Assembly: GCA_002781745.1 (NCBI GenBank)
Contig: PFFW01000093.1
Coordinates: 4,435-68,434 of the forward strand
Length of the DNA: 64,000 nt
Origin: Rhodospirillales bacterium CG15_BIG_FIL_POST_REV_8_21_14_020_66_15
GTDB lineage: Bacteria; Pseudomonadota; Alphaproteobacteria; Rhodospirillales; Casp-alpha2
Direction: 5' to 3'
A model generated the notes under the pieces. That model worked only from the letters and a program-made list of their open reading frames with translations. It was not told the DNA's origin and made no database searches. Positions 29,201-55,059 of the stretch are shown piece after piece. Both the position numbers and the translations under genes were made by a program. The number at the start of each line of letters is the position of its first letter. Positions within the stretch are counted from its first letter, which is position 1.

Positions 29201-29584
29201 TTACCAGCGCCCGGGGCCGCCGGTTTGCGCGCCGCCTTTTATCCCGGTTTTCAATCCGGGTAATCCGGAGTGGCAGAGATCGCAGTTTTCGACGCCCCAG
29301 GCGACGTCGTTGTTATGGCATATTCCGCAATACTTGCCGTCGATGATGGCGCTCATGGAGATATCGTTCGCTCCGGCCCGCATCTTGAACCCCAATTCGT
29401 GGTGACAGACCTTGCAGCGGAACCTGATCCGGTGGAACCAGTGCGGATAGATCACCGGCCGCATGCCCTGTTTTTCGGCGCGCTTGTTCAGGACCACGTC
29501 GGCGTATTCGGCATTGCCGGAGCCGGTGTGGAATATTCCTGCGATCAGGACGATGACTGCGGCATAGATTATCGAAGGCTTCAT
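29201..29584 (-). CDS. small triheme c7-type cytochrome
   Basis: A 127-residue exported protein with a signal peptide ending near GNA. Three heme c motifs (CKVCH, CGICH, CDLCH) are spaced as in c7-type triheme domains, and extra histidines for bis-His ligation stand in YPHWFHRIRF. AGGA precedes the ATG at 29584 by six to seven bases. It is the last gene of the left-going operon and is clearly paralogous to the triheme protein at 48630 (shared PHWFHRIRFRCKVCH). Small triheme cytochromes usually act as fast periplasmic electron carriers; the partner here is unknown. Confidence 0.88.
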   Translation of the reverse strand: MKPSIIYAAVIVLIAGIFHTGSGNAEYADVVLNKRAEKQGMRPVIYPHWFHRIRFRCKVCHHELGFKMRAGANDISMSAIIDGKYCGICHNNDVAWGVENCDLCHSGLPGLKTGIKGGAQTGGPGRW

Positions 29585-29592
29585 GGTCATTC

Positions 29593-30315
29593 CTATTTCG
29601 GCCTTACCACGACCTTGTTCTTCGATTCGGCGAGGGCTTTCTTGAAATCCCGGTGAAGGACGCTGTGGCATCGATTGCATTCGGTCAGCGGGAAGGCCAC
29701 CGCGCCGTGGCATTGGCCGCAATACTTCCCTTCGAGAATGTCCGTCATCGTGATGGGCGTCGCGCCCGCCTTCTTCTTGAAAATCTGCTCGTGGCAGTTC
29801 TCACAATCGAGCCACATCGTATGTTGGCGGTGCGGGAATTTCACGATTGGCAGCGCGCCGTTCAGGCTCAGGAATATGTCCAGGTCGAGGACGTTTATGT
29901 GCGTGTCCGGGCGAATGTTGGTGCGCGGATTGATCAGTCCCTGATCGAGCGCGGCGATCCAATCCACCTTGTTGCCGGCCTCGTCCGAGGGTAGCGGAGC
30001 CAATGCCTCGGCGGGCTGTTGTAGAAGTTTTATCGCGGGACTTCTCGGATCATGCAGGCCGTCCGCCGTCAGCGATTTCCATTTCTCGCTCCTGGATGCG
30101 GCCGGAGAGGACGGTGCCGCGACCGCGGCATTCTCCGTCGGCGCCGAAGCAGACGGCGGCGATGGGGTCGAGATCGATTTGAGCGTTTCCGTGTTGCAGG
30201 CCACAAGCAGGGCGAACAGCGTGGAGAGCGCGCAAACCACCGGCCAACTCCGGGCGACGGTCCAGGTATCCGATGAGAACGAGGCGGCCGTGCGCCGGCG
30301 TCTGAACCGTGTCAT
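29593..30315 (-). CDS. triheme c7-type cytochrome lipoprotein
   Basis: About 240 residues with a lipoprotein signal (hydrophobic stretch ending FALLVAC). A ~90-residue low-complexity linker precedes the C-terminal triheme domain with CENCH, CGQCH and CNRCH; FPHRQHTMWLDC supplies the histidine ligands and ITMTDILEGKYCGQCH matches the c7 triheme pattern. The ATG at 30315 overlaps the stop of the upstream gene (ATGA); an ATG at 30345 is also possible. The C-terminal half and the segment VLDLDIFLSLNGALPIVKFPH parallel the pentaheme protein at 49040, of which this looks like a version without the two added monoheme domains. Confidence 0.85.
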   Translation of the reverse strand: MTRFRRRRTAASFSSDTWTVARSWPVVCALSTLFALLVACNTETLKSISTPSPPSASAPTENAAVAAPSSPAASRSEKWKSLTADGLHDPRSPAIKLLQQPAEALAPLPSDEAGNKVDWIAALDQGLINPRTNIRPDTHINVLDLDIFLSLNGALPIVKFPHRQHTMWLDCENCHEQIFKKKAGATPITMTDILEGKYCGQCHGAVAFPLTECNRCHSVLHRDFKKALAESKNKVVVRPK

Positions 30316-30926
30316 CTTGCCGGCCTCTCTCTGGCGGGAATCCATGAGTAGGCCCTCCGTTCCGCCTCTACGACGTCATTTCTGGACATGCGTGGGAGGA
30401 GGCTGCGCCTGTCAATCAGCACGGTTGCTTTCTGGTCGCTGGCCACTTGTCGGCTGGCAATCGTGTACCAACTATAGGCCTCGATCCGCTGCTCCTTGGT
30501 GGCTCCGTCCGCGCTCAGAAGCTCGGCCAGCGCCAATTGCGCCTCGGTCGATCCCTGGTTCGCCGCCCGTCTGAACCAATATGCGCTTTCGACCGGGTCC
30601 CGGGTCACGCCGATGCCCCAGGCGTACAAACTGGCCAGGTCCCTTTGAGCTTCCATCAATCCGCCTTCGGCCGCTTTGAAATACCACTTTGCGGCCTGGT
30701 TGTAGTCAATGTCGAACCCTTCGCCGTTGGCATACATTCGCGCGAGATAGAGCTGGCTCTTCGGGTCGCCCTTTTCCGCGAGTTTAAGGAAATCCTTGGC
30801 CGCCTGCATGTAACGGCTCTTATGATAGGCTTCAAGCCCGCGTTCAAAGTAGGCTTGGGGCCCCGGGTCCGGCGCGCACGCCGTGAGCAGGCAGACAAGG
30901 GCTGACACGCTTCGCCATAATCGCAT
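30312..30926 (-). CDS. Sel1-repeat lipoprotein
   Basis: About 204 residues. A short lipoprotein signal (MRLWRSVSALVCLLTAC) leads to three to four Sel1-type TPR repeats, seen as SQLYLARMYANGEGFDIDYN, AQRDLASLYAWGIGV and AQLALAELLSADG. Such repeats make protein-binding scaffolds. An upstream in-frame ATG at 30977 is possible, but the later start gives a clean lipobox. It overlaps the triheme lipoprotein gene by four bases, and another Sel1 protein is encoded at 39927. Its likely role is assembly or tethering of cytochromes at the outer membrane; this is inference. Confidence 0.85.
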   Translation of the reverse strand: MRLWRSVSALVCLLTACAPDPGPQAYFERGLEAYHKSRYMQAAKDFLKLAEKGDPKSQLYLARMYANGEGFDIDYNQAAKWYFKAAEGGLMEAQRDLASLYAWGIGVTRDPVESAYWFRRAANQGSTEAQLALAELLSADGATKEQRIEAYSWYTIASRQVASDQKATVLIDRRSLLPRMSRNDVVEAERRAYSWIPARERPAR

Positions 30927-30985
30927 CGGCGGCACTTCCGGGTTTTCTCGTTGTGTATCAGAAGGCTGTACGACCATAACGCGGA

Positions 30986-31960
30986 TTACCTCTGCACGCC
31001 GCCGGGTTGTTGCGGCACGCGGTCGAAAAAGGCCTTTTCAACGTAGGCGGCGACCGCGGCGATCTGATCTTCGGTCATCACTCTTTTCCATGCCGACATG
31101 GAGGTGCCCGACAATCCATCGCGGATGACCCTGATCACGGACCCGTGGTCGAGCCGGGCGCGCAGTTCGGGGTCGTTCAGGTTTCTCGCGGGTGGATCCA
31201 GGAACGCGCCGATCCAATTGCCGCCCGAGCCGTCCATCGCATGACAGAAGGCGCAGTTCGCCTGATAAAGCTCTTCTCCACGCCTCTCCTGTGCGGACAG
31301 TCCGGTGATGACGGGGGCCCGGTTGTGGACGTCATACGGGGTGGCAGGGGCGCCGCCGGCCGAATCCCGGGCGCCGTCCTTGCGCCAGGGGAAGTCGATA
31401 CGGCCGTCACGATGGCACACCACGCCGCAGCCCTGGTCCGAAAGGGGGTACTTGCTCCACGCTTCTCCGGAGGCCTTCGATTCCCGTCCCGCATGACAGG
31501 TGATGCAGGTTTTTTTGAACAGCGCCAGACCATGCCGCTGTTCAGGCGTCATCGTCGTGGGGGCTTTGTCTATTGCGATTTCCCGTTTCACGAAAGGGTA
31601 GGCGGCCGCATACCGCTCGCGGTGACGGGGCCATCCATTCTCCTTCGTGTGGTAGAAGGTATTGACCGCCGCCTTGGTGACGAATTCGGATTCGATGAAA
31701 CGCGCGACGTCCTCGATTTCCTCCGGCGACAGGGTCTTGGCGAAGCTTTTCATGGCGGTGCCTTTCACGCCGTGCCGGAGCACTTGCATGATCTTCGGTG
31801 CCGTCAGGTGCTTCGCCGTCGTGAAGTCGGCCGGTTTCGGCGACAGGTATTCGGCCGCTTCGGTCGCGGCGTCGCCATTGTATCCGTGGCAGAAATAGCA
31901 CCGGAAATTATATACCTTCCGCCCGCGTTCGACCGGCGTCGCGGGGTCGTCCTGCGCCAT
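30986..31960 (-). CDS. cytochrome c, three CxxCH plus one CxxxCH, no signal peptide
   Basis: A 324-residue protein that starts MAQDDPATPVERGRKVYNFR and runs straight into its first heme motif CYFCH, without any signal peptide. Further motifs are CITCH, CAFCH and a CGVVCH (CxxxCH) variant, in cytochrome c domains with methionines in GTAMKSF and GTSMSAW. c-Type heme is attached only outside the cytoplasm, so as an independent product it could not mature. Its ATG overlaps the stop of the exported triheme cytochrome gene by one base, directly after an A9 run containing A AAA AAC. It is best read as the second half of a longer cytochrome made by -1 frameshifting, or as one gene broken by a homopolymer error. 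Confidence 0.85.
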   Translation of the reverse strand: MAQDDPATPVERGRKVYNFRCYFCHGYNGDAATEAAEYLSPKPADFTTAKHLTAPKIMQVLRHGVKGTAMKSFAKTLSPEEIEDVARFIESEFVTKAAVNTFYHTKENGWPRHRERYAAAYPFVKREIAIDKAPTTMTPEQRHGLALFKKTCITCHAGRESKASGEAWSKYPLSDQGCGVVCHRDGRIDFPWRKDGARDSAGGAPATPYDVHNRAPVITGLSAQERRGEELYQANCAFCHAMDGSGGNWIGAFLDPPARNLNDPELRARLDHGSVIRVIRDGLSGTSMSAWKRVMTEDQIAAVAAYVEKAFFDRVPQQPGGVQR

Positions 31961-31972
31961 CAGTTTTTTTTT
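31958..31972 (-). other. A9 run with slippery heptamer at junction of two cytochrome genes
   Basis: On the minus strand nine A's (31972-31964) are followed by C, TGA (31962-31960) and ATG (31960-31958). The zero frame reads AAA AAC TGA, and the heptamer A AAA AAC (31969-31963) is a classic -1 slippage site. A -1 shift reads through as CTG ATG GCG into the next cytochrome. Transcriptional slippage on A9 would have the same effect. Confidence 0.6.
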
Positions 31973-33216
31973 GAGGGAGGCTCGGCGCGATCCTCCGCCG
32001 GTGCGCCGCCGCCTTCTCCGTTCTCTTTGAAGAGTTTGGACGGCGACTGCCTGGCGTCGGCCATGATGAAGCGGCTGAAGATGAATTCGGCCACATCGGC
32101 GATCTGCTGGTCCGTCAGAACGGTCGCCCAGGCCGGCATTACCGTTCCCGTGATTCCCTTGGCAATGCTTTGGAACAGATGCGGGCGGTTGAGTTCGGCC
32201 CTTGCGCGTTTTCCCGTGAAATTTTCCGGCCGGGGAAAGATGAAATAGGCGCGGGGGCCGTCACCGTTGCCTTGTACGCCGTGACATGCCGAACAATTGC
32301 TCTGATAGAGTTTCTTTCCTCGGGTCACATCGCCCGAAAGTCCGCCCGCAAACGCCCGCGCCATTTCGTGCGAGCCGCCTTCGTGGTTGTGTCCATGTCC
32401 GCCGGGCGGAGAGCCGGCGGGAGGCGTCTTGCCTTCGTCGGCCAGCTTTTCCGGGAAGATGAAAGCCTGACGAATGTAATCGACGACGGCGGCGATTTCA
32501 TTTTGCGACAGCTGCGTCGCAAAGCCCACCATGGCGCTCTTTTCCGATCCATAGGTCACGGTGTTGATCATGTGCCGCCGGGAAAGTTTTTTCGCCTTGT
32601 ACGAGGTGAAGTCGAAAGGCGGCGGGTCCAGGCTGTTCTTCGCCCAGGACGCCGCGTTTCCGCGGTCACCGTGACACACGCTGCAGGTGCGGGCGAAAAT
32701 CTTTCGGCCGACACTGGCATCGGCGGTTCCGCTCGGCAGCATGAACGCGTCCCCGATGAAATCGACGACGTCCTTTGCGTCCTGTTCGGACAGCGGGGAT
32801 TTGCCGTCTTTTCCGGCCGCCGTCCCGTGCCCCTGGCGCAGCGCCGTCAACATGCGTGCCGCGGTATAGGTGACGAGCGCTTGCGGTGCCGTGAAGTCCG
32901 GCACGGGTTTGTCGAGGCCTGCCGCGGCGGGGCCCTGACCGTCGCCCTGCCTGCCGTGGCAGGAAACGCAGCGGTCGCGATAGACCTGCGACCCGCGGAC
33001 CGCCCGAATGCCCTCCTTCAGGGGCTTGAATGGAGTTGCCGCCGGGGCGGTCTCGCCCGCGTGGCCGGGCGCGTGCCGATGCCCTTCGTCGGCACGGAGC
33101 CCGGGCGCGCCCGCAACCGAAGCGGCGAGAATCCCCAATACCAGAAGGATGCGCACGACGCGTGAGTTTGTCGGTTGCGGGCGGATATTCGAATTCCGGC
33201 AAACGGCGCGTTTCAA
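31960..33216 (-). CDS. exported triheme cytochrome c (first half of probable fused cytochrome)
   Basis: A 418-residue protein with a long-headed signal peptide (hydrophobic RILLVLGILAASVAGAPG). Three cytochrome c domains each have one heme motif: CVSCH, CSVCH and CSACH, with domain-typical PPPFDF, TGTVMPAWA and similar methionine regions. A histidine-rich linker (HGHNHEGGSH) lies between domains 2 and 3. The TTG at 33216 is chosen because GAGG lies five bases before it. The gene ends at an A9 slippery site next to a signal-less cytochrome gene, so frameshifting would give a ~740-residue six- or seven-heme protein. Confidence 0.85.
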   Translation of the reverse strand: MKRAVCRNSNIRPQPTNSRVVRILLVLGILAASVAGAPGLRADEGHRHAPGHAGETAPAATPFKPLKEGIRAVRGSQVYRDRCVSCHGRQGDGQGPAAAGLDKPVPDFTAPQALVTYTAARMLTALRQGHGTAAGKDGKSPLSEQDAKDVVDFIGDAFMLPSGTADASVGRKIFARTCSVCHGDRGNAASWAKNSLDPPPFDFTSYKAKKLSRRHMINTVTYGSEKSAMVGFATQLSQNEIAAVVDYIRQAFIFPEKLADEGKTPPAGSPPGGHGHNHEGGSHEMARAFAGGLSGDVTRGKKLYQSNCSACHGVQGNGDGPRAYFIFPRPENFTGKRARAELNRPHLFQSIAKGITGTVMPAWATVLTDQQIADVAEFIFSRFIMADARQSPSKLFKENGEGGGAPAEDRAEPPSKKN

Positions 33217-33286: not shown

Positions 33287-34372
33287 TCAGCTGGACAGTT
33301 TCGGTTTGCCGAGGCTGGCGGGGCGGTACACCTCGAGTTTCGAAAAAAACTGGTCGACTACGTAAATCCGCCCGTCGGTCCGGTCGACGGTCAACCCCGA
33401 GGGAAGCATGAACTTGCCCGGGCCGTTGATGGTCGAACGCTCGCCGATCCACATCAGAAGTTCGCCCTTCGGGTTGAATATCTGAATGTTCCCGAACGCG
33501 GCATCGGTCACATAGATGTTGTTCTGCGCATCGACGGCGACGCTTTTCGGGCGGGCGAACTGACCCGAGCGGGTGCCGACGGTGCCGATCGAGAACTTGT
33601 ACTTACCTGACTGGTCAAACGCCTGGACGCGGAAGTTGCCGCCATCGACGACGTACAAGGTGCCGTCGGGCCCGATGGTCGCCGTGAGCGGAAGGTTGAA
33701 TTCCCCTGCCTTGTCGCCGCGCTTGCCGATGTCATAGAGATGCTTGCCCGAGGGGGCCATGACGATCACCCGATGCTTGTTCGAGGTCACGCCGCCCGTG
33801 TCGACGATGAAAACCTTGCTGCCGTCACCGCTGACCGCAATTCCGGTCGGGCGTTCGAAGATTTCGCGTCCGTCGATCGAGTTGATGTAATTGCCGTCGA
33901 AATCGTAGATGACCACGCGCTTTGCCGTCGCGTCCACGACGTAAAGCTGGCCCTTGTCGTCCAACGCGATGCCCAGCGGCTTGGCCAGGGAACCGACGCC
34001 TTCAGTGCCGATTTCAAAATGCCTTTTTGCTTTGGTGTCGAAGGCGTGAACCAAGCGGGAGACGCTGTCGCCGACGAAGATGCGGCCGTTCCTGATCTCG
34101 ACGCCGAACGGCTTCGACAGTGAGTCCGAGGCACCGCTGGCTCCGGTGGCCATTGCCCGGAGCTTTTGCGCCGTCGTCAGTTCGACGACGTCCCTGCTGC
34201 TGTGTATTACCTTCTCGAAGTAGAACCGGGGATCGGCTGGTTTCGCCGGCCACGTCGTCTGGACGGCGGCAGTGTTGGCCGGGCCTGTCGTCTGACATGC
34301 GGCGATGGAAAGGGCGAGCACGGGAACCATCGCAAGATTCTTCGCCCATTTGTGAAACGTCGTATCGGTCAT
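33287..34372 (-). CDS. NHL-repeat beta-propeller lipoprotein
   Basis: About 361 residues. A lipoprotein signal (VPVLALSIAAC) is followed by about six NHL repeats forming a beta-propeller: GIALDDKGQLYVVDATAKRV, GIAVSGDGSKVFIVDTGG, SVAVDAQNNIYVTDAAFG and GLTVDRTDGRIYVVDQFF are typical blades. AAGGGG stands nine bases before the ATG at 34372; the ATG at 34378 is too close. Its paralogue is the NHL lipoprotein at 51608. NHL proteins accompany multiheme cytochrome and conduit clusters in Geobacter-type bacteria. The work done by the propeller is not known; a surface or periplasmic scaffold is the usual guess. Confidence 0.88.
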   Translation of the reverse strand: MTDTTFHKWAKNLAMVPVLALSIAACQTTGPANTAAVQTTWPAKPADPRFYFEKVIHSSRDVVELTTAQKLRAMATGASGASDSLSKPFGVEIRNGRIFVGDSVSRLVHAFDTKAKRHFEIGTEGVGSLAKPLGIALDDKGQLYVVDATAKRVVIYDFDGNYINSIDGREIFERPTGIAVSGDGSKVFIVDTGGVTSNKHRVIVMAPSGKHLYDIGKRGDKAGEFNLPLTATIGPDGTLYVVDGGNFRVQAFDQSGKYKFSIGTVGTRSGQFARPKSVAVDAQNNIYVTDAAFGNIQIFNPKGELLMWIGERSTINGPGKFMLPSGLTVDRTDGRIYVVDQFFSKLEVYRPASLGKPKLSS

Positions 34373-34481
34373 GTTCATCTACCCCTTCAATCGTTTCTGG
34401 TCGTCGCCCGCTTGACACGCGACCCCGGCAAGTTGGCTGGCTGCCCTGATCAGGAATCCGATCAGGACTGGGGGACCAGGT

Positions 34482-48629: not shown

Positions 48630-49043
48630 GTGGTCAAAATCTTGAAACGCATCCTGCTCGGCGTGGCAGTAGTCGCCGTCGGCCTTTTCCCCGCGTGGGT
48701 ACGAAACGCCGCGAACGCGGAATATGGCGACGTTGTCATCAACAATTATTCGGACGGGGCGCAGATGGCACCGGCGGTATTTCCGCATTGGTTCCACCGC
48801 ATCAGGTTTCGCTGCAAGGTCTGCCACGCCGACCTGGGCTTCGAGTTCAAGGCGGGCGGCAACGACATCACGATGTTGAAAATCTTCGACGGGGAATTCT
48901 GTGGTGCCTGCCATAACGGTCAGATCGCGTGGTCCGTCGAGAACTGCCCGCTTTGTCACACGGGTAAGCCTGGGACGAAAACCAAGGTTCACACCAATAC
49001 CCTTCTGTTGGTCGCGCCGGCGGCGAAGGCGGCGGGCAAATGA
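48630..49043 (+). CDS. small triheme c7-type cytochrome
   Basis: About 137 residues with a signal peptide (ILLGVAVVAVGLFPAWV, cleavage near NAANA). Heme motifs CKVCH, CGACH and CPLCH are arranged as in c7 triheme domains; FPHWFHRIRFRCKVCH is almost identical to the copy at 29201. The GTG at 48630 is used because GAGG (48617-48620) lies nine bases before it. It overlaps the pentaheme gene by four bases. It is probably a periplasmic shuttle. Confidence 0.88.
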   Translation: MVKILKRILLGVAVVAVGLFPAWVRNAANAEYGDVVINNYSDGAQMAPAVFPHWFHRIRFRCKVCHADLGFEFKAGGNDITMLKIFDGEFCGACHNGQIAWSVENCPLCHTGKPGTKTKVHTNTLLLVAPAAKAAGK

Positions 49044-50515
49044 CCGTATTCAGTTTGATCAACCGGTCGTCGGGTTTTGTTCTGATCGCCGGTGTTTTCC
49101 TGGTTTCCCTGTCGTGCGGCCCGGAGGCCGCCCACGCCGAAACGGCGAAAGTCGGCGCCCCTTCGTCCAAGAAGGCAACGACCAAGGAAGGGAAGGCGGC
49201 TCCCAGCCAGGCCAACCGGTTCAACAGGCTGTTCAAGGGGGCGGCTGGGTTCAACCTGCCGCCGACGGAAGACGGAATCCACGATCCCGACTCCGTCGGA
49301 ACCCAGGCCCTTCAGCCGCCGAAGCAAGCCTTCGAGGATCTTCCGAAAGGGAAGGCGGGAAACCGCGTTGACTGGGTCCAGGCACTGGACATCGGGGTCA
49401 TCCAGCCGCGCACCGACAAAGCGGGCACGGGCAAGGCGATGACGGTCCTCGACCTCAACATCGTGCGCGAGGTCAAGGGCAGCATGCCGGACGTGGTCTA
49501 CCCCCACAAGCCGCACACCAAGTGGCTGCAGTGCAGCAACTGCCATCCGAAAATCTTCATTCCCAAGAAGGGCGCCAACAAGATCAGCATGGCGGCGATC
49601 CTCGCCGGTCAGTATTGCGGCGTCTGCCATGGCAAGGTCGCGTTTCCGATCTCCGAATGCCGGTTGTGCCACTCGAAGAACAAGACCAAAGAGCAGATCG
49701 CGGCGCAATCGACAAAGCACGTCTCCGCGCGGACGCAAGCCGCCCGCACGGAAGCAAAGGGGACGACAGCGCCCGCGGCGGCGGCCAAGCCGGATTCCGT
49801 TCTTGACGACATGAGCGTGACGAACCTGATGAAGCTGGGGCAGACGATTTATACGGACATCTGTTCCGGGTGCCACGGCGACAAGGGACAGGGCGTGCCA
49901 GGGACCTTTCCGGCGCTCAAGGGAAGCAAGATCGCGAGCGGTGATCCGGCGAAGCATATAGATGTCGTTGTCAACGGCCGGCCCGAAACGGCGATGCAGC
50001 CCTGGAAAGAAGATCTGAACGCGCAGGAGATCGCGGCTGTCATTACGTTCGAACGCGCGTCATGGGGCAACGCCGGAGGGCCGGTCCAGCCCAGGCAGGT
50101 CCATGCGGCGATCTCGGGCGGAAAGGCGGCCGAACCGCCGGCACCGAAGTCCGCGCCCGTCAAGGCGGTTGAAAAGGAAGCCTCCGCCAAGGCGAAGACC
50201 GCCACCCTGTCGAAGGAGCAGCTGATGTCGCAAGGCGCGGCGGTCTATGCGGAAAATTGCAGCGCCTGTCACGGCGAGAAGGGTGAAGGCGTTCCCGATG
50301 TGGCGCCGCCTTTGAAGGGCAGCAAGATCGTCTCCGGCCCTATCGACAAGCACATCGAAATCGTACTCAACGGACGTCCCGAGACGGCCATGCAGGCCTG
50401 GAACGAAATCCTGAGCCCCGAGGCCACGGCCGCGGTGATTACGTTCGAACGGAATTCCTGGGGGAACGCCGCGGGCGACACGGTCCAACCGTCGGAGATT
50501 GCGAAAGGTCGGTGA
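49040..50515 (+). CDS. pentaheme cytochrome: triheme c7 domain plus two COX2-like cytochrome c domains
   Basis: A 491-residue exported protein (signal VLIAGVFLVSLSCGPEAAHA, possibly lipidated at Cys). A ~100-residue linker leads to a c7 triheme domain (CSNCH, CGVCH, CRLCH; residues ~155-220), then two ~85-residue monoheme domains (CSGCH and CSACH) that are near copies of each other, both with LKGSKI, NGRPETAMQ and AVITFER-SWGN. That last motif is like the cytochrome c domain on caa3 oxidase subunit II. The first part is paralogous to the triheme lipoprotein at 29593. The protein looks built by fusion and internal duplication. Confidence 0.88.
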   Translation: MTVFSLINRSSGFVLIAGVFLVSLSCGPEAAHAETAKVGAPSSKKATTKEGKAAPSQANRFNRLFKGAAGFNLPPTEDGIHDPDSVGTQALQPPKQAFEDLPKGKAGNRVDWVQALDIGVIQPRTDKAGTGKAMTVLDLNIVREVKGSMPDVVYPHKPHTKWLQCSNCHPKIFIPKKGANKISMAAILAGQYCGVCHGKVAFPISECRLCHSKNKTKEQIAAQSTKHVSARTQAARTEAKGTTAPAAAAKPDSVLDDMSVTNLMKLGQTIYTDICSGCHGDKGQGVPGTFPALKGSKIASGDPAKHIDVVVNGRPETAMQPWKEDLNAQEIAAVITFERASWGNAGGPVQPRQVHAAISGGKAAEPPAPKSAPVKAVEKEASAKAKTATLSKEQLMSQGAAVYAENCSACHGEKGEGVPDVAPPLKGSKIVSGPIDKHIEIVLNGRPETAMQAWNEILSPEATAAVITFERNSWGNAAGDTVQPSEIAKGR

Positions 50516-51607: not shown

Positions 51608-52672
51608 ATGAAGTTCATACACCTCCTTTTCGTTACGGTGCTCCTGACGGCCTGCTCCATCGGGCCAGAGACAGTCGTCCCAAAATTCGAACCCCAAGCC
51701 TCCGGCCCGGTCTGGCCGCTTCCGCCGGATGCGCCCCGCTACGCCTATGCGGGAACGCTGATAGGCGAGCGCAATTTTCTGAAACAGGAAGACAAGGTCA
51801 AACAAAAGACGAAATCGTTTTTCGCCTTCGTCGTGGGGCTTGTCTTCGGTGAGCCCGACTATGTCGAATTGCGCCGCCCCGTCAGCGGTCTCGTGGACAA
51901 GCAGGGTCGCATTCTCGTCGTCGACGCCAGCCACAAGGCGGTCATGGTGTTCGATTTGAAGGCCAAGCGGTTATTGAAGTGGGAGCGGACCAGCGAATAC
52001 GCGCGTTTCATCAGTCCCGTCGCGATCGCGGATGACGGCAAAGGCGGGGTTTGGGTGACCGATTCGGAAATGGGCGAAGCCATTCGGCTGGACCCGGCGG
52101 GGGCGCCCATCGCGCGATTGGGAAAGGGAGTTCTGGACCGCCCGACGGGGATTGCCCGAAATCCGGACGACGGTCGGATTTACATATCGGATACCGCGGC
52201 GAACAACATCAAGGTATTTGACCCGTCGGGCAGGCTGATCGACACCATCGGCGGCCCAGGCGTGCAGGCCGGGGAATTCAACACGCCCACGCACCTCTAT
52301 TACAGGTCCGGCCGGCTTTACGTCGCGGACACCCTGAACTTTCGCATTCAGGTTCTTGACGCCCAAAACGACCCGAAGGTCGCATTCGGCCGGGTCGGCA
52401 TCAAGGTCGGCAACATGACCCGGCCGAAGGGCGTCTCCGTCGGCGGGGACGGACGTATATACGTCGTCGAATCCTATTTTGACCATCTCCTGGTCTTTAC
52501 GCCGTCCGGGCAACTCTTGTTGCCCATCGGAGGTACCGGGCGGGGCGCGGGTCAATTCTACCTGCCGGGCGGGGTCTGGACCGACAACCAGAATCGCGTC
52601 TATGTCGCCGACATGTTCAATGGGCGGGTTTCCATCTTCAAGGAATTGACCGCAATGGAGGAACACAAATGA
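51608..52672 (+). CDS. NHL-repeat beta-propeller lipoprotein
   Basis: A 354-residue lipoprotein (MKFIHLLFVTVLLTAC). About six NHL blades follow a ~80-residue proline-rich head: GLVDKQGRILVVDASHKA, IADDGKGGVWVTDSEMGEA, GIARNPDDGRIYISDTAAN, GVSVGGDGRIYVVESYFDH and GVWTDNQNRVYVADMFNG. It is the paralogue of the lipoprotein at 33287. Its stop overlaps the 11-heme cytochrome start (ATGA), so the two are made together and probably bind each other on the outer membrane. Confidence 0.9.
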   Translation: MKFIHLLFVTVLLTACSIGPETVVPKFEPQASGPVWPLPPDAPRYAYAGTLIGERNFLKQEDKVKQKTKSFFAFVVGLVFGEPDYVELRRPVSGLVDKQGRILVVDASHKAVMVFDLKAKRLLKWERTSEYARFISPVAIADDGKGGVWVTDSEMGEAIRLDPAGAPIARLGKGVLDRPTGIARNPDDGRIYISDTAANNIKVFDPSGRLIDTIGGPGVQAGEFNTPTHLYYRSGRLYVADTLNFRIQVLDAQNDPKVAFGRVGIKVGNMTRPKGVSVGGDGRIYVVESYFDHLLVFTPSGQLLLPIGGTGRGAGQFYLPGGVWTDNQNRVYVADMFNGRVSIFKELTAMEEHK

Positions 52673-55059
52673 CGTTCCTGCGGAACGCGCACGCGGTCTG
52701 GCTCCCGGCCTTTCTGGCCGTCTGTCTTTCGTTTGCCGTGACGACGGGCCCGGCGCGCGGCGAACGGATTTCCGACATCGCCAATACCAAGCATAATTTT
52801 TCCGTGACCAGCGGAAATGCGGTGCGGGCAACGGACACCACGGAAATCTGCGTGTTCTGCCACACGCCCCACGGCGCCACGACCAGCGTTCCGGCGCCGC
52901 TCTGGAACCGTTCGCTCAGTCAGGCGAATTACACGCCCTATTCATCGGCCTCGATCGATGCGCTTGGATTGGACCAGCCGGGCGGAAGTTCCAAGATCTG
53001 CCTCTCCTGTCATGACGGAACGATCGCCATCGGTAACGTCAACGTCCTTGGCGGGAACAAGACGGATGGCAATCCCGGGACAGCGGACATCAACATGACA
53101 GGTACGGGCGCGGGGGGGACCATGCCGCAGGGGTCGGGTGCGCAGACCGGCTTCACCCGCATCCTGGGAACCAATCTGACGAACGACCATCCGATTTCGT
53201 TTGCATATGATGACGCCTTGGCGTTGCGCGATGGAGAATTGCGCTCACCTTCCGCGACCGCCCACATCGGCAACCGGGTTCCGGGCATAAAGCCCGACGT
53301 GCCGCTGGAAAACGGTCAGCTCCAGTGCACCTCGTGCCACGATCCGCATATTCGCGATACGACCGAGGCCAACATCAAGTTCCTTCGCCTGAACAGGCTG
53401 CAGAAGAACCCCCCCGCGGGCGGGACCTTCGACAAGGTGAACGATATCGTGTGTCTGGCCTGTCACGATAAGGAGGGATACGTCAATTCGAGCCACGCCG
53501 ACGCAGTCGTCGCCGATGAGACCTATACATCGACGGCGGCGGTCCTGCGGGAATTCCCCGCCAATACCAAGGTCTGGCAGGCGTCCTGCCTCAACTGCCA
53601 TGACCCCCATACGGTCGAGGGCTCGCGCCGGCTTCTCCGGGAAGGAACCGACAGCCCTCTGTCTCCCAAGTCCGGAGGCAGCTCGGCCATGGAGGAAACC
53701 TGTTATCAATGCCATTCGTCGACGGGGGGCGTCCTGGTCAATCAGGGGACGACCGGTTTCCAGGTCCCGAACATAAAGACCGATTTCCAGTCCCTGCGCC
53801 ATATGCCGATCGCCGATCAGCCCGAGGCCCACGACATCGGCACCGCCGCGGTGTCCCAGGCGGGCAAGGATTTCCTCGAATCCCGCCAGAAACTGGGGCT
53901 CGGCGCGCCGACGGACCGCCATGCCGAATGTACCGACTGCCACAATCCGCATCGCGTGACCAAGAACCGGCGGTTCAATGACAATCCCGGGGTTCCCGAT
54001 TCCGCCGGAACCCACGAACATAGCAGCGGCCATACCAATATCGCTTCCGGCGCGCTTCGCGGCACCTGGGGGGTCGAGCCCGTCTACGGGTCGTCGACGT
54101 TTCTTTCGACCCCGATATCGTTCAATCTGAAACGCGGCTATCCGCCGCCGGGGGCGACCACCGACGTGACGAATACATTCGTGACACGGGAATACCAGGT
54201 CTGCCTGAAGTGCCATTCCACGTATGCCTATGCATCGCCACCCACGTTGGGGTGCTGCACGCCGTCCGGCACCAACGGCCTGACCCAGTACACGGATCAG
54301 GCGATGGAGTTCCAGGCGCCTGATTCCGATAAAGGCGAAGGCGGCGGCAACCACCGTTCATGGCATCCCGTGATAGAGGAAACGGGGCGCGATCTGAGCG
54401 TCCGCGGCGGCATGGCCGCATCGTTGTTCCTGTCTCCGTGGAACGGGACGGCCGATGTCGGATCGCAGACCATGTATTGCTCGGATTGCCACGGCTCGGC
54501 GACGGCGAACGGGACGGTGGTTCCGATCGGGAACTCGGGGACCGAGAACGGCGCGCCCTGGGGGCCGCATGGCTCGTCCAAGGACTTCATTCTGAAGGGC
54601 GACTGGACTCAGTCGACGGGCACGGGACAGCAGGACGACCTGTGTTTCAAGTGTCACAACTACACCAACTACGCGACGCGAAATTCGACACGAAGCGGCT
54701 GGTGCTGTGAAAAAGACAACAACCTGCACGGGTTCCATGCCGACAAGATCGGCCGGATGCGGTGCACCTGGTGCCACGTCGCCGTGCCCCACGGCTGGAA
54801 GAACAAGGCGTTCCTGGTCAACCTGAACGATGTCGGGCCCGAGGTCGGCCTGCCCTCCGGGACCCAGGTGCGAAACAACACCACCGCCGGCTACACCAAC
54901 CCGCCTTACTACCTGAACGCCATGCTCAAGGTGCGTACCTTCCGCGCCAGCGGGAACTGGCAGGCAAGCGACTGCGGGTCGTCGGGATCGCCCGGCAACG
55001 GCCAGTCGGGCCGCGACTGGATGCGCGACAGCAGTGAAAACTGCGAAAATCCGCCGTGA
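52669..55059 (+). CDS. 11-heme (undecaheme) c-type cytochrome
   Basis: A 796-residue exported protein (signal AVWLPAFLAVCLSFAVTTGP). I count 11 CxxCH motifs: CVFCH, CLSCH, CTSCH, CLACH, CLNCH, CYQCH, CTDCH, CLKCH, CSDCH, CFKCH and CTWCH. The opening TKHNFSVTSGNAVRATDTTE then CVFCHTPHGA and PLWNR, and CLSCHDGTIAIGN, are typical of large doubled-CxxCH cytochromes of Geobacter-type and related metal reducers. Histidines away from CxxCH (SSHADAVV, LRHMPIAD, THEHSSGH) can serve as distal ligands. Size and context suggest the outer or extracellular member of the system. It overlaps the NHL gene and the ResB gene. Confidence 0.93.
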   Translation: MTFLRNAHAVWLPAFLAVCLSFAVTTGPARGERISDIANTKHNFSVTSGNAVRATDTTEICVFCHTPHGATTSVPAPLWNRSLSQANYTPYSSASIDALGLDQPGGSSKICLSCHDGTIAIGNVNVLGGNKTDGNPGTADINMTGTGAGGTMPQGSGAQTGFTRILGTNLTNDHPISFAYDDALALRDGELRSPSATAHIGNRVPGIKPDVPLENGQLQCTSCHDPHIRDTTEANIKFLRLNRLQKNPPAGGTFDKVNDIVCLACHDKEGYVNSSHADAVVADETYTSTAAVLREFPANTKVWQASCLNCHDPHTVEGSRRLLREGTDSPLSPKSGGSSAMEETCYQCHSSTGGVLVNQGTTGFQVPNIKTDFQSLRHMPIADQPEAHDIGTAAVSQAGKDFLESRQKLGLGAPTDRHAECTDCHNPHRVTKNRRFNDNPGVPDSAGTHEHSSGHTNIASGALRGTWGVEPVYGSSTFLSTPISFNLKRGYPPPGATTDVTNTFVTREYQVCLKCHSTYAYASPPTLGCCTPSGTNGLTQYTDQAMEFQAPDSDKGEGGGNHRSWHPVIEETGRDLSVRGGMAASLFLSPWNGTADVGSQTMYCSDCHGSATANGTVVPIGNSGTENGAPWGPHGSSKDFILKGDWTQSTGTGQQDDLCFKCHNYTNYATRNSTRSGWCCEKDNNLHGFHADKIGRMRCTWCHVAVPHGWKNKAFLVNLNDVGPEVGLPSGTQVRNNTTAGYTNPPYYLNAMLKVRTFRASGNWQASDCGSSGSPGNGQSGRDWMRDSSENCENPP

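Follow-up and report, generated by a model that had tools for sequence, protein, structure and literature searches.

The question raised by this locus is whether two adjacent c-type cytochrome genes, which meet on the minus strand at a run of nine adenines (A9), are really two genes or form one gene, the second half of which is reached by a -1 shift of the reading frame. The window, by which we mean the whole 64 kb stretch of DNA that was analysed, contains no other A or T run of at least nine nucleotides than this one at 31964..31972, and runs of eight were found at two other places. On the minus strand the end of the upstream gene and the start of the next frame read TCA AAA AAA AAC TGA TG; the elements of the junction and the two halves are as follows.

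31964..31972, minus strand: A9 slippery run, from the sequence, kept in homologues
31972-31966, minus strand: A_AAA_AAA heptamer, from the sequence
31963..31969, minus strand: A_AAA_AAC heptamer in the upstream reading frame, abutting the stop, from the sequence
31963, minus strand: single C after the A9, from the sequence
31960..31962, minus strand: TGA, stop of the upstream (unshifted) frame, from the sequence
31958..31960, minus strand: ATG in the -1 frame, overlapping the TGA, from the sequence
31960..33216, minus strand: upstream exported triheme cytochrome, 418 aa, with three Cytochrome_CBB3/Cytochrom_C stretches
30986..31960, minus strand: downstream cytochrome half, 324 aa from the ATG, with three CxxCH and CGVVCH, without signal peptide by hydropathy

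An earlier note on this DNA had described a triheme cytochrome ending in AAA AAC TGA inside the A9 run, followed from the overlapping ATG by a cytochrome in the -1 frame without signal peptide; the minus-strand sequence agrees with the first of these statements, and sequence and hydropathy with the second. The product expected there from a -1 slip, about 740 residues with six CxxCH and one CxxxCH, was recovered as well, the computed fusion of the pair being 743 aa long with exactly these motifs.

The upstream protein of the window has a hydrophobic N-terminus and three CxxCH, its length of 418 aa being counted from the TTG start given by the ORF tool. Both halves match the class I cytochrome c families Cytochrome_CBB3 and Cytochrom_C, and in a comparison with NCBIfam models at 1e-5 neither half reached the cut-off. 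Since the homologues of each half are also matched by the other half, in both directions, the predicted fusion resembles related heme domains arranged in tandem. The CGVVCH (CxxxCH) at 31412-31429 on the minus strand lies within an insert of the downstream half and is a possible seventh heme site; at its alignment place it occurs only in the window row and is absent from the other ten rows of the 11-row alignment A1. Only a poor AlphaFold model (mean pLDDT 61.4) was obtained for the downstream half, with 11 sequences as input.

In our preferred reading, to which we give a probability of roughly 0.88, the pair would be a single gene expressed by a programmed -1 recoding fusion; this is deduced from sequences, and neither a fusion protein nor a slipped transcript has been observed. 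The hemes of c-type cytochromes are attached in the periplasm. Translation in the 0 frame would give an exported triheme cytochrome c stopping just past the A9, and a fraction of the expression events would slip at the A9 and continue in the -1 frame, so that a single exported polypeptide of about 743 residues results, carrying six CxxCH hemes (and the CxxxCH in the window). Lacking its own signal peptide, the downstream half would reach the periplasm solely within the fusion; if its export depends on the fusion in this manner, the slip would do two jobs, the export of the second half and the setting of the triheme/hexaheme ratio. The arrangement and its conservation could be read directly, while the production of a fusion, its amount and the agent of the slip are inferred, and the same is true for a control of the ratio between the short and the long cytochrome, for which there are no direct data.

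The conservation of the junction was followed in two surveys. In the first, the downstream half served as query against a single genome collection and 11 loci were obtained, ten of them with the junction: seven had exactly A9 near the upstream stop, the downstream frame at -1 and no signal peptide, and the remaining three had no A run and a downstream gene with its own hydrophobic N-terminus. In the second survey a profile of the downstream half (alignment A1) was run against whole genomes, and matches at E 1e-70 or better were taken. Known genomes included, they were obtained in 37 of 369 genomes of the class sample to which the L008 genome, a Chromatiaceae MAG, belongs, in 4 of 61 genomes from the order that holds the Kiloniellaceae locus L012, in 18/20, 7/8 and 4/4 genomes of three further orders, and in 24 of 398 genomes of the phylum sample; at 1e-60, five of six genomes in the order of L008 matched. 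The window genome was the only one of 385 in its own class sample, the gene being absent from the 384 others at 1e-70, and a single-protein query at 1e-20 likewise gave no match in 60 relatives of that genome. As the relatives lack the gene at the thresholds used, no comparison among close kin was possible; for the same reason the electron-transfer island of the window, described below, may have been acquired horizontally, as far as such an absence can indicate. Among plasmids, the downstream half had no match at E 1e-40.

The resulting junction table holds 91 loci, one per genome, with the window included and duplicates removed; the fragment L018 and the duplicates from repeated searches (L001-L007, L019-L031, L048, L055, L085, L088) were dropped before counting. 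The A-run and GGGAAAG classes were assigned first, from the DNA, and hydropathy then sorted the rest. An A run was found in 51 loci, an A run together with an in-frame GGGAAAG in two and GGGAAAG only in six, namely five loci and L080, where the upstream ORF is cut by the end of the stretch and the class was set by hand, the -1 frame having been checked from the sequence. A downstream half with its own signal peptide, and no A run, was seen in 30 loci, a single in-frame fused gene in one (L061), and one locus (L065), cut by a contig end, was classed as truncated and left out of the tree.

The downstream half lies at -1 in all 58 measurable slip loci (51 with A run, two with both sites, five with GGGAAAG), thus in every one of the 53 A-run loci, and in these it keeps three CxxCH in 52. 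The run is A9 in 43 of the 53, A10 in eight and A8 in two, and it ends at most 54 nt from the upstream stop in all of them and at most 12 nt from it in 48. Of the 30 signal-peptide loci, 13 have a shift of -1, eight of +1 and three of 0, and in six it is unmeasurable. By these counts the A run near the upstream stop is beyond chance, because of its position, because only two other runs of A8 or longer were found in the same two ORFs over all 53 loci, and because none of the 24 measurable signal-peptide loci has such a run in the last 60 codons of the upstream gene. In the same 60 codons of these 24 loci an in-frame GGGAAAG occurs once and any in-frame X_XXY_YYZ seven times, which is the chance level.

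Signal peptides were called by a simple hydropathy window of 11 residues and not by a trained predictor, with a cut-off of 2.0 that was picked after the values were known. The maximum at the downstream N-terminus does not exceed 1.88 in the slip loci (L068 was too short to score) and is at least 2.05 in each of the 30 signal-peptide loci, hence the gap between the classes is narrow; by this measure no signal peptide was detected on the downstream half in the 59 slip loci. On the other side of the junction, the N-terminus of the upstream protein attains 2.0 or more, and so counts as hydrophobic, in 50 of the 53 A-run loci, the other three reaching 1.68-1.70. Since slip loci are without a second signal peptide, and loci without a slip site have either that signal peptide or one ORF, slip site, second signal peptide and fused gene replace each other across the loci, as judged from these calls. 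In the 30 signal-peptide loci the halves are separate exported proteins, therefore the fusion is not needed everywhere. The locus L061, the only one of the 91 with one in-frame gene, has no A run; a homologue with one long gene had been asked for in the earlier note as a check of its idea, and this single ORF provides it. The fusion is thus supported by the -1 frame in 58 of 58 loci, by the missing second signal peptide, by the alternative heptamer in one lineage and by the fused L061. The proposal of that note, a ribosomal -1 fusion exporting the second cytochrome, stands in so far as the homologues predict the fusion, but the ribosome as its agent at the A9 is not settled.

These data have to be weighed against the view that the locus consists of two separate genes linked by translational coupling, the downstream cytochrome being a protein of its own made from the overlapping ATG. 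Coupled reinitiation is possible in the window, where the ATG overlaps the stop, the second gene does have a signal peptide in 30 of the 91 homologous loci, and an overlapping stop-start also results in a -1 relation, as seen in 13 of the 24 measurable signal-peptide loci. Yet a c-type cytochrome begun at the overlapping ATG would remain in the cytoplasm, and no slip locus has a signal peptide there by hydropathy. Moreover, a start codon at least 12 codons before the first heme motif is present in just 23 of the 53 A-run loci, the window included; as the other 30 have no ATG, GTG or TTG in such a position before the first CxxCH, the ATG at 31958..31960 is probably incidental on the evidence of these sequences. 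Coupling also leaves unexplained why the A9, or GGGAAAG in its stead, is conserved, and we regard it as improbable.

A still smaller chance was given to phase variation, in which the A9 would be a contingency run of the DNA and replication slippage would toggle between fused and unfused cells. Homopolymer runs are known as phase-variation sites (PMC3711429), but none of the 53 A-run genomes is in the fused frame, the A8, A9 and A10 loci are all at -1, and the six GGGAAAG-only loci have no run of this kind; with no run found in the fused register, this explanation was rejected. That the junction merely reflects a sequencing or assembly error, or a decaying pseudogene, would be conceivable in a homopolymer, which is error-prone, and in a draft assembly of 198 contigs like that of the window. 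The earlier note itself had worried about a homopolymer error, and this is answered by the A8-A10 junctions of the same kind in 52 other genomes. The three downstream CxxCH kept in 52 of the 53 loci and the second kind of slip site in six further loci speak likewise against error and decay, and both were rejected on conservation, practically no probability being left for them.

A quick maximum-likelihood analysis of the downstream half in 90 rows, without the junction, gave an unrooted tree that bears on the preferred reading, a programmed -1 fusion. Six changes are needed among the slip, signal-peptide and fused states, and the starred branches force at least two for the slip label. The A-run rows require nine changes of run phase or length, and every row stays at -1. 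The window row has a long branch, and its placement is unsure.

An exchange of the slip site itself can be followed in a nine-row clade from the order of genome G145. One member (L081) has only A9, two (L076 and L078) have the A run and GGGAAAG, and six (L053, L064, L079, L080, L086 and L087) have GGGAAAG only; the first three and the six form sister groups with support of 93 and 88. The codons CCG GGA AAG are identical in all eight heptamer-bearing rows of the clade, amid a variable tail. GGGAAAG is, as we assume, the heptamer of the lambda gpG-gpGT frameshift. A G_GGA_AAG sequence is highly shift-prone in E. coli according to PMC5009743, and ribosomal slippage is much the likelier agent in this clade. 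A pattern search for Lys tRNA genes matched none at all in 36 of 73 genomes. Of 51 A-run genomes, 30 were without match and 13, among them that of the window, showed the CUU anticodon, as did 4 of 13 signal-peptide genomes; both genomes with the two sites were without match. In the six GGGAAAG-only genomes (G145, G274, G508, G510, G511, G512) the same search gave CUU in 0/6 and UUU in 6/6. This pattern fits slipping on AAG in the absence of a CUU tRNA, and it is only suggestive, the six genomes being one lineage.

The agent at the A9 is less clear: we lean slightly to RNA polymerase slippage, with ribosomal slippage only a little behind, and both are possible. The run is A9 or A10 in 51 of the 53 A-run loci and no slip locus relies on A7 alone; nine A's point to RNA polymerase, because seven would serve the ribosome (A_AAA_AAC). 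The phase of the run against the frame (0 in 37 loci, 1 in nine and 2 in seven) and the lack of an in-frame A_AAA_AAG in all 53 loci were also counted for RNA polymerase, whereas the stop directly after the run and one C, found in the window and in L012, L058, L059, L060 and L115, was counted for the ribosome. According to section 10 of PMC3711429, a single direction of shift is a sign of ribosomal slippage and both directions among orthologues a sign of transcriptional slippage; the latter criterion is unmet, as only -1 was seen in 53 of 53. No consistent stem-loop was found 3' of the junction: z averages -0.50, compared with -0.09 for 290 control stretches (p 0.07), though it is below -2 in 12% of 58 slip loci against 4% of the controls; for the window z was 1.1 in one computation and -0.56 in another. 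Motifs resembling a Shine-Dalgarno sequence lie upstream in 20 of 58 slip loci against 13.7% of control windows, the rows being related, and a search of the junction for an Rfam family or a promoter gave nothing consistent. The Lys codons within the run are AAA in 144 cases and AAG in none, compared with 318 AAA and 388 AAG in the rest of the upstream ORFs; this count was not used as evidence, since it is partly true by definition, the runs having been chosen for being A.

Ribosomal -1 slippage alone, at A_AAA_AAA/A_AAA_AAC, could make the fusion at the A9 sites; this differs from the preferred reading only in the agent and shares its odds, and we credit it with not quite an even chance. The single direction in 58 of 58 loci, kept at -1 through all nine changes of run phase or length, agrees with it, as do the lineage using G_GGA_AAG, which is not a homopolymer, and the six loci, with that of the window, where run and one C precede the stop. 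It does not account for nine or more A's in 51 of 53 loci and A7 alone in none, where seven would suffice, for the want of a consistent stimulator, or for the missing in-frame A_AAA_AAG.

Several known systems can be compared with the programmed fusion proposed here. The six GGGAAAG-only loci and the lambda gpG/gpGT gene presumably share the same heptamer. The gpG/gpGT tail chaperone of phage lambda is alike in that a -1 slip gives a C-terminally extended form, and unlike in being a phage assembly protein made at a molar ratio of 30:1 and not an exported cytochrome (PMC5009743). In dnaX one gene likewise gives a short and a long product (tau/gamma), and its orthologues use ribosomal or RNA polymerase slippage, depending on the lineage, to the same end; it is, however, a DNA polymerase subunit, and a single ORF covers its long form in E. 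coli and Thermus (PMC5009743 section 21). The magnesium chelatase cluster of frameshifted genes is similar in that two adjacent genes stand at -1 on a poly-A run and fused homologues exist elsewhere, and the 9-A cassette of the magnesium chelatase gene gave 40% frameshifting in E. coli; the protein is a different one, and the section concerned describes neither a shift-dependent export nor a slip-site swap or signal-peptide replacement (PMC3711429 section 24). The main text of the same GeneTack survey, taken without its supplements, does not contain the word cytochrome. Among the literature matches listed, judged by titles and abstract openings and with subscription literature thinly covered, there was no report of a programmed frameshift in a c-type cytochrome, and no match paired a slippery sequence with a c-type cytochrome.

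The possible role of the cytochrome was approached through its neighbours, of which the following stand in the window.

33287..34378, minus strand: NHL-repeat protein, immediately upstream of the pair, with homologues near the pair in other loci
30312..30977, minus strand: Sel1-repeat gene, next downstream
29593..30345, minus strand: triheme c7-type cytochrome (PF14522, TIGR04257)
29201..29722, minus strand: second triheme c7-type cytochrome (PF14522)
52669..55059, plus strand: 11-CxxCH cytochrome of 796 residues, its N-terminal part OmcE-like (PDB 7TFS), UetJ-like by heme number

The 11-heme gene lies about 20 kb from the recoded pair, and the window also has NHL or NHL-like genes. At 49040-50515 on the plus strand a c7-type triheme domain was seen joined to class I cytochrome c stretches, with 5 CxxCH.

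Longer flanks were examined for 27 of the 59 slip loci (L008-L012, L014, L016 and L136-L155, the window excluded), for 22 of the 30 signal-peptide loci and for the fused locus. All 27 slip loci have, upstream and on the opposite strand, an OmcE/Uet-type cytochrome gene of the tetra- or pentaheme kind as well as an NHL gene; in 25 the nearest OmcE/Uet-type match is a pentaheme gene about 2 kb before the downstream half, which by coordinates adjoins the upstream cytochrome gene. The fused locus has the same layout, and c7 genes were not found near the 27 slip loci. Among the 22 signal-peptide loci, 20 have the NHL gene and only 8 the OmcE/Uet-type gene, an absence that is weak because the upstream flank of several of them is shorter than 4 kb; an OmcE/Uet-type pentaheme partner may be tied to the slip organisation. 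Neighbours of L012 and L010 match PDB 7TFS, which is OmcE (PMC12954529).

The window has the undecaheme/OmcE-like cytochrome, the triheme c7 cytochromes and the NHL proteins expected of a Uet/OmcE-type neighbourhood, and these genes suggest an extracellular electron-transfer island; its 11-heme, c7 and NHL genes recall the Uet set (PMC10734462). The Uet complex and the OmcE filaments share with our loci the OmcE-like cytochromes of 4-5 or 11 hemes, the triheme c7 and the NHL proteins (PMC10734462, PMC12954529), although a recoded cytochrome is not named among the Uet parts in PMC10734462, where the word frameshift is absent too. As NHL and OmcE/Uet-type genes adjoin the pair, the recoded cytochrome likely acts in OmcE/Uet-type extracellular electron transfer, its function being inferred from the neighbours. 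Only tentatively, and with rather less than even odds, can it be proposed that slippage sets the triheme/hexaheme stoichiometry and gates the export of the second half in many lineages, that the product works with OmcE/Uet cytochromes, and that within one lineage the A9 was exchanged for a ribosomal G_GGA_AAG site without loss of the -1 fusion.

If the fusion is real, annotation based on ORFs would turn a single respiratory protein into two entries in dozens of genomes, an exported triheme cytochrome and a seemingly unexported orphan, and redox carriers of extracellular electron transfer join the cellular proteins made by programmed recoding. With recoding, paired signal peptides and a single fused ORF standing in for one another, the loci would then amount to a natural experiment, which includes the replacement of A9 by G_GGA_AAG in a clade with dual-site members; the importance of the ratio of short to long carrier for electron transfer would become testable.

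A separate observation was made in L083, where the -1 frame is open for 1,093 nt upstream of the stop and the downstream frame alone resembles an ORF of 671 codons. Such an open -1 frame is a trap for gene callers.
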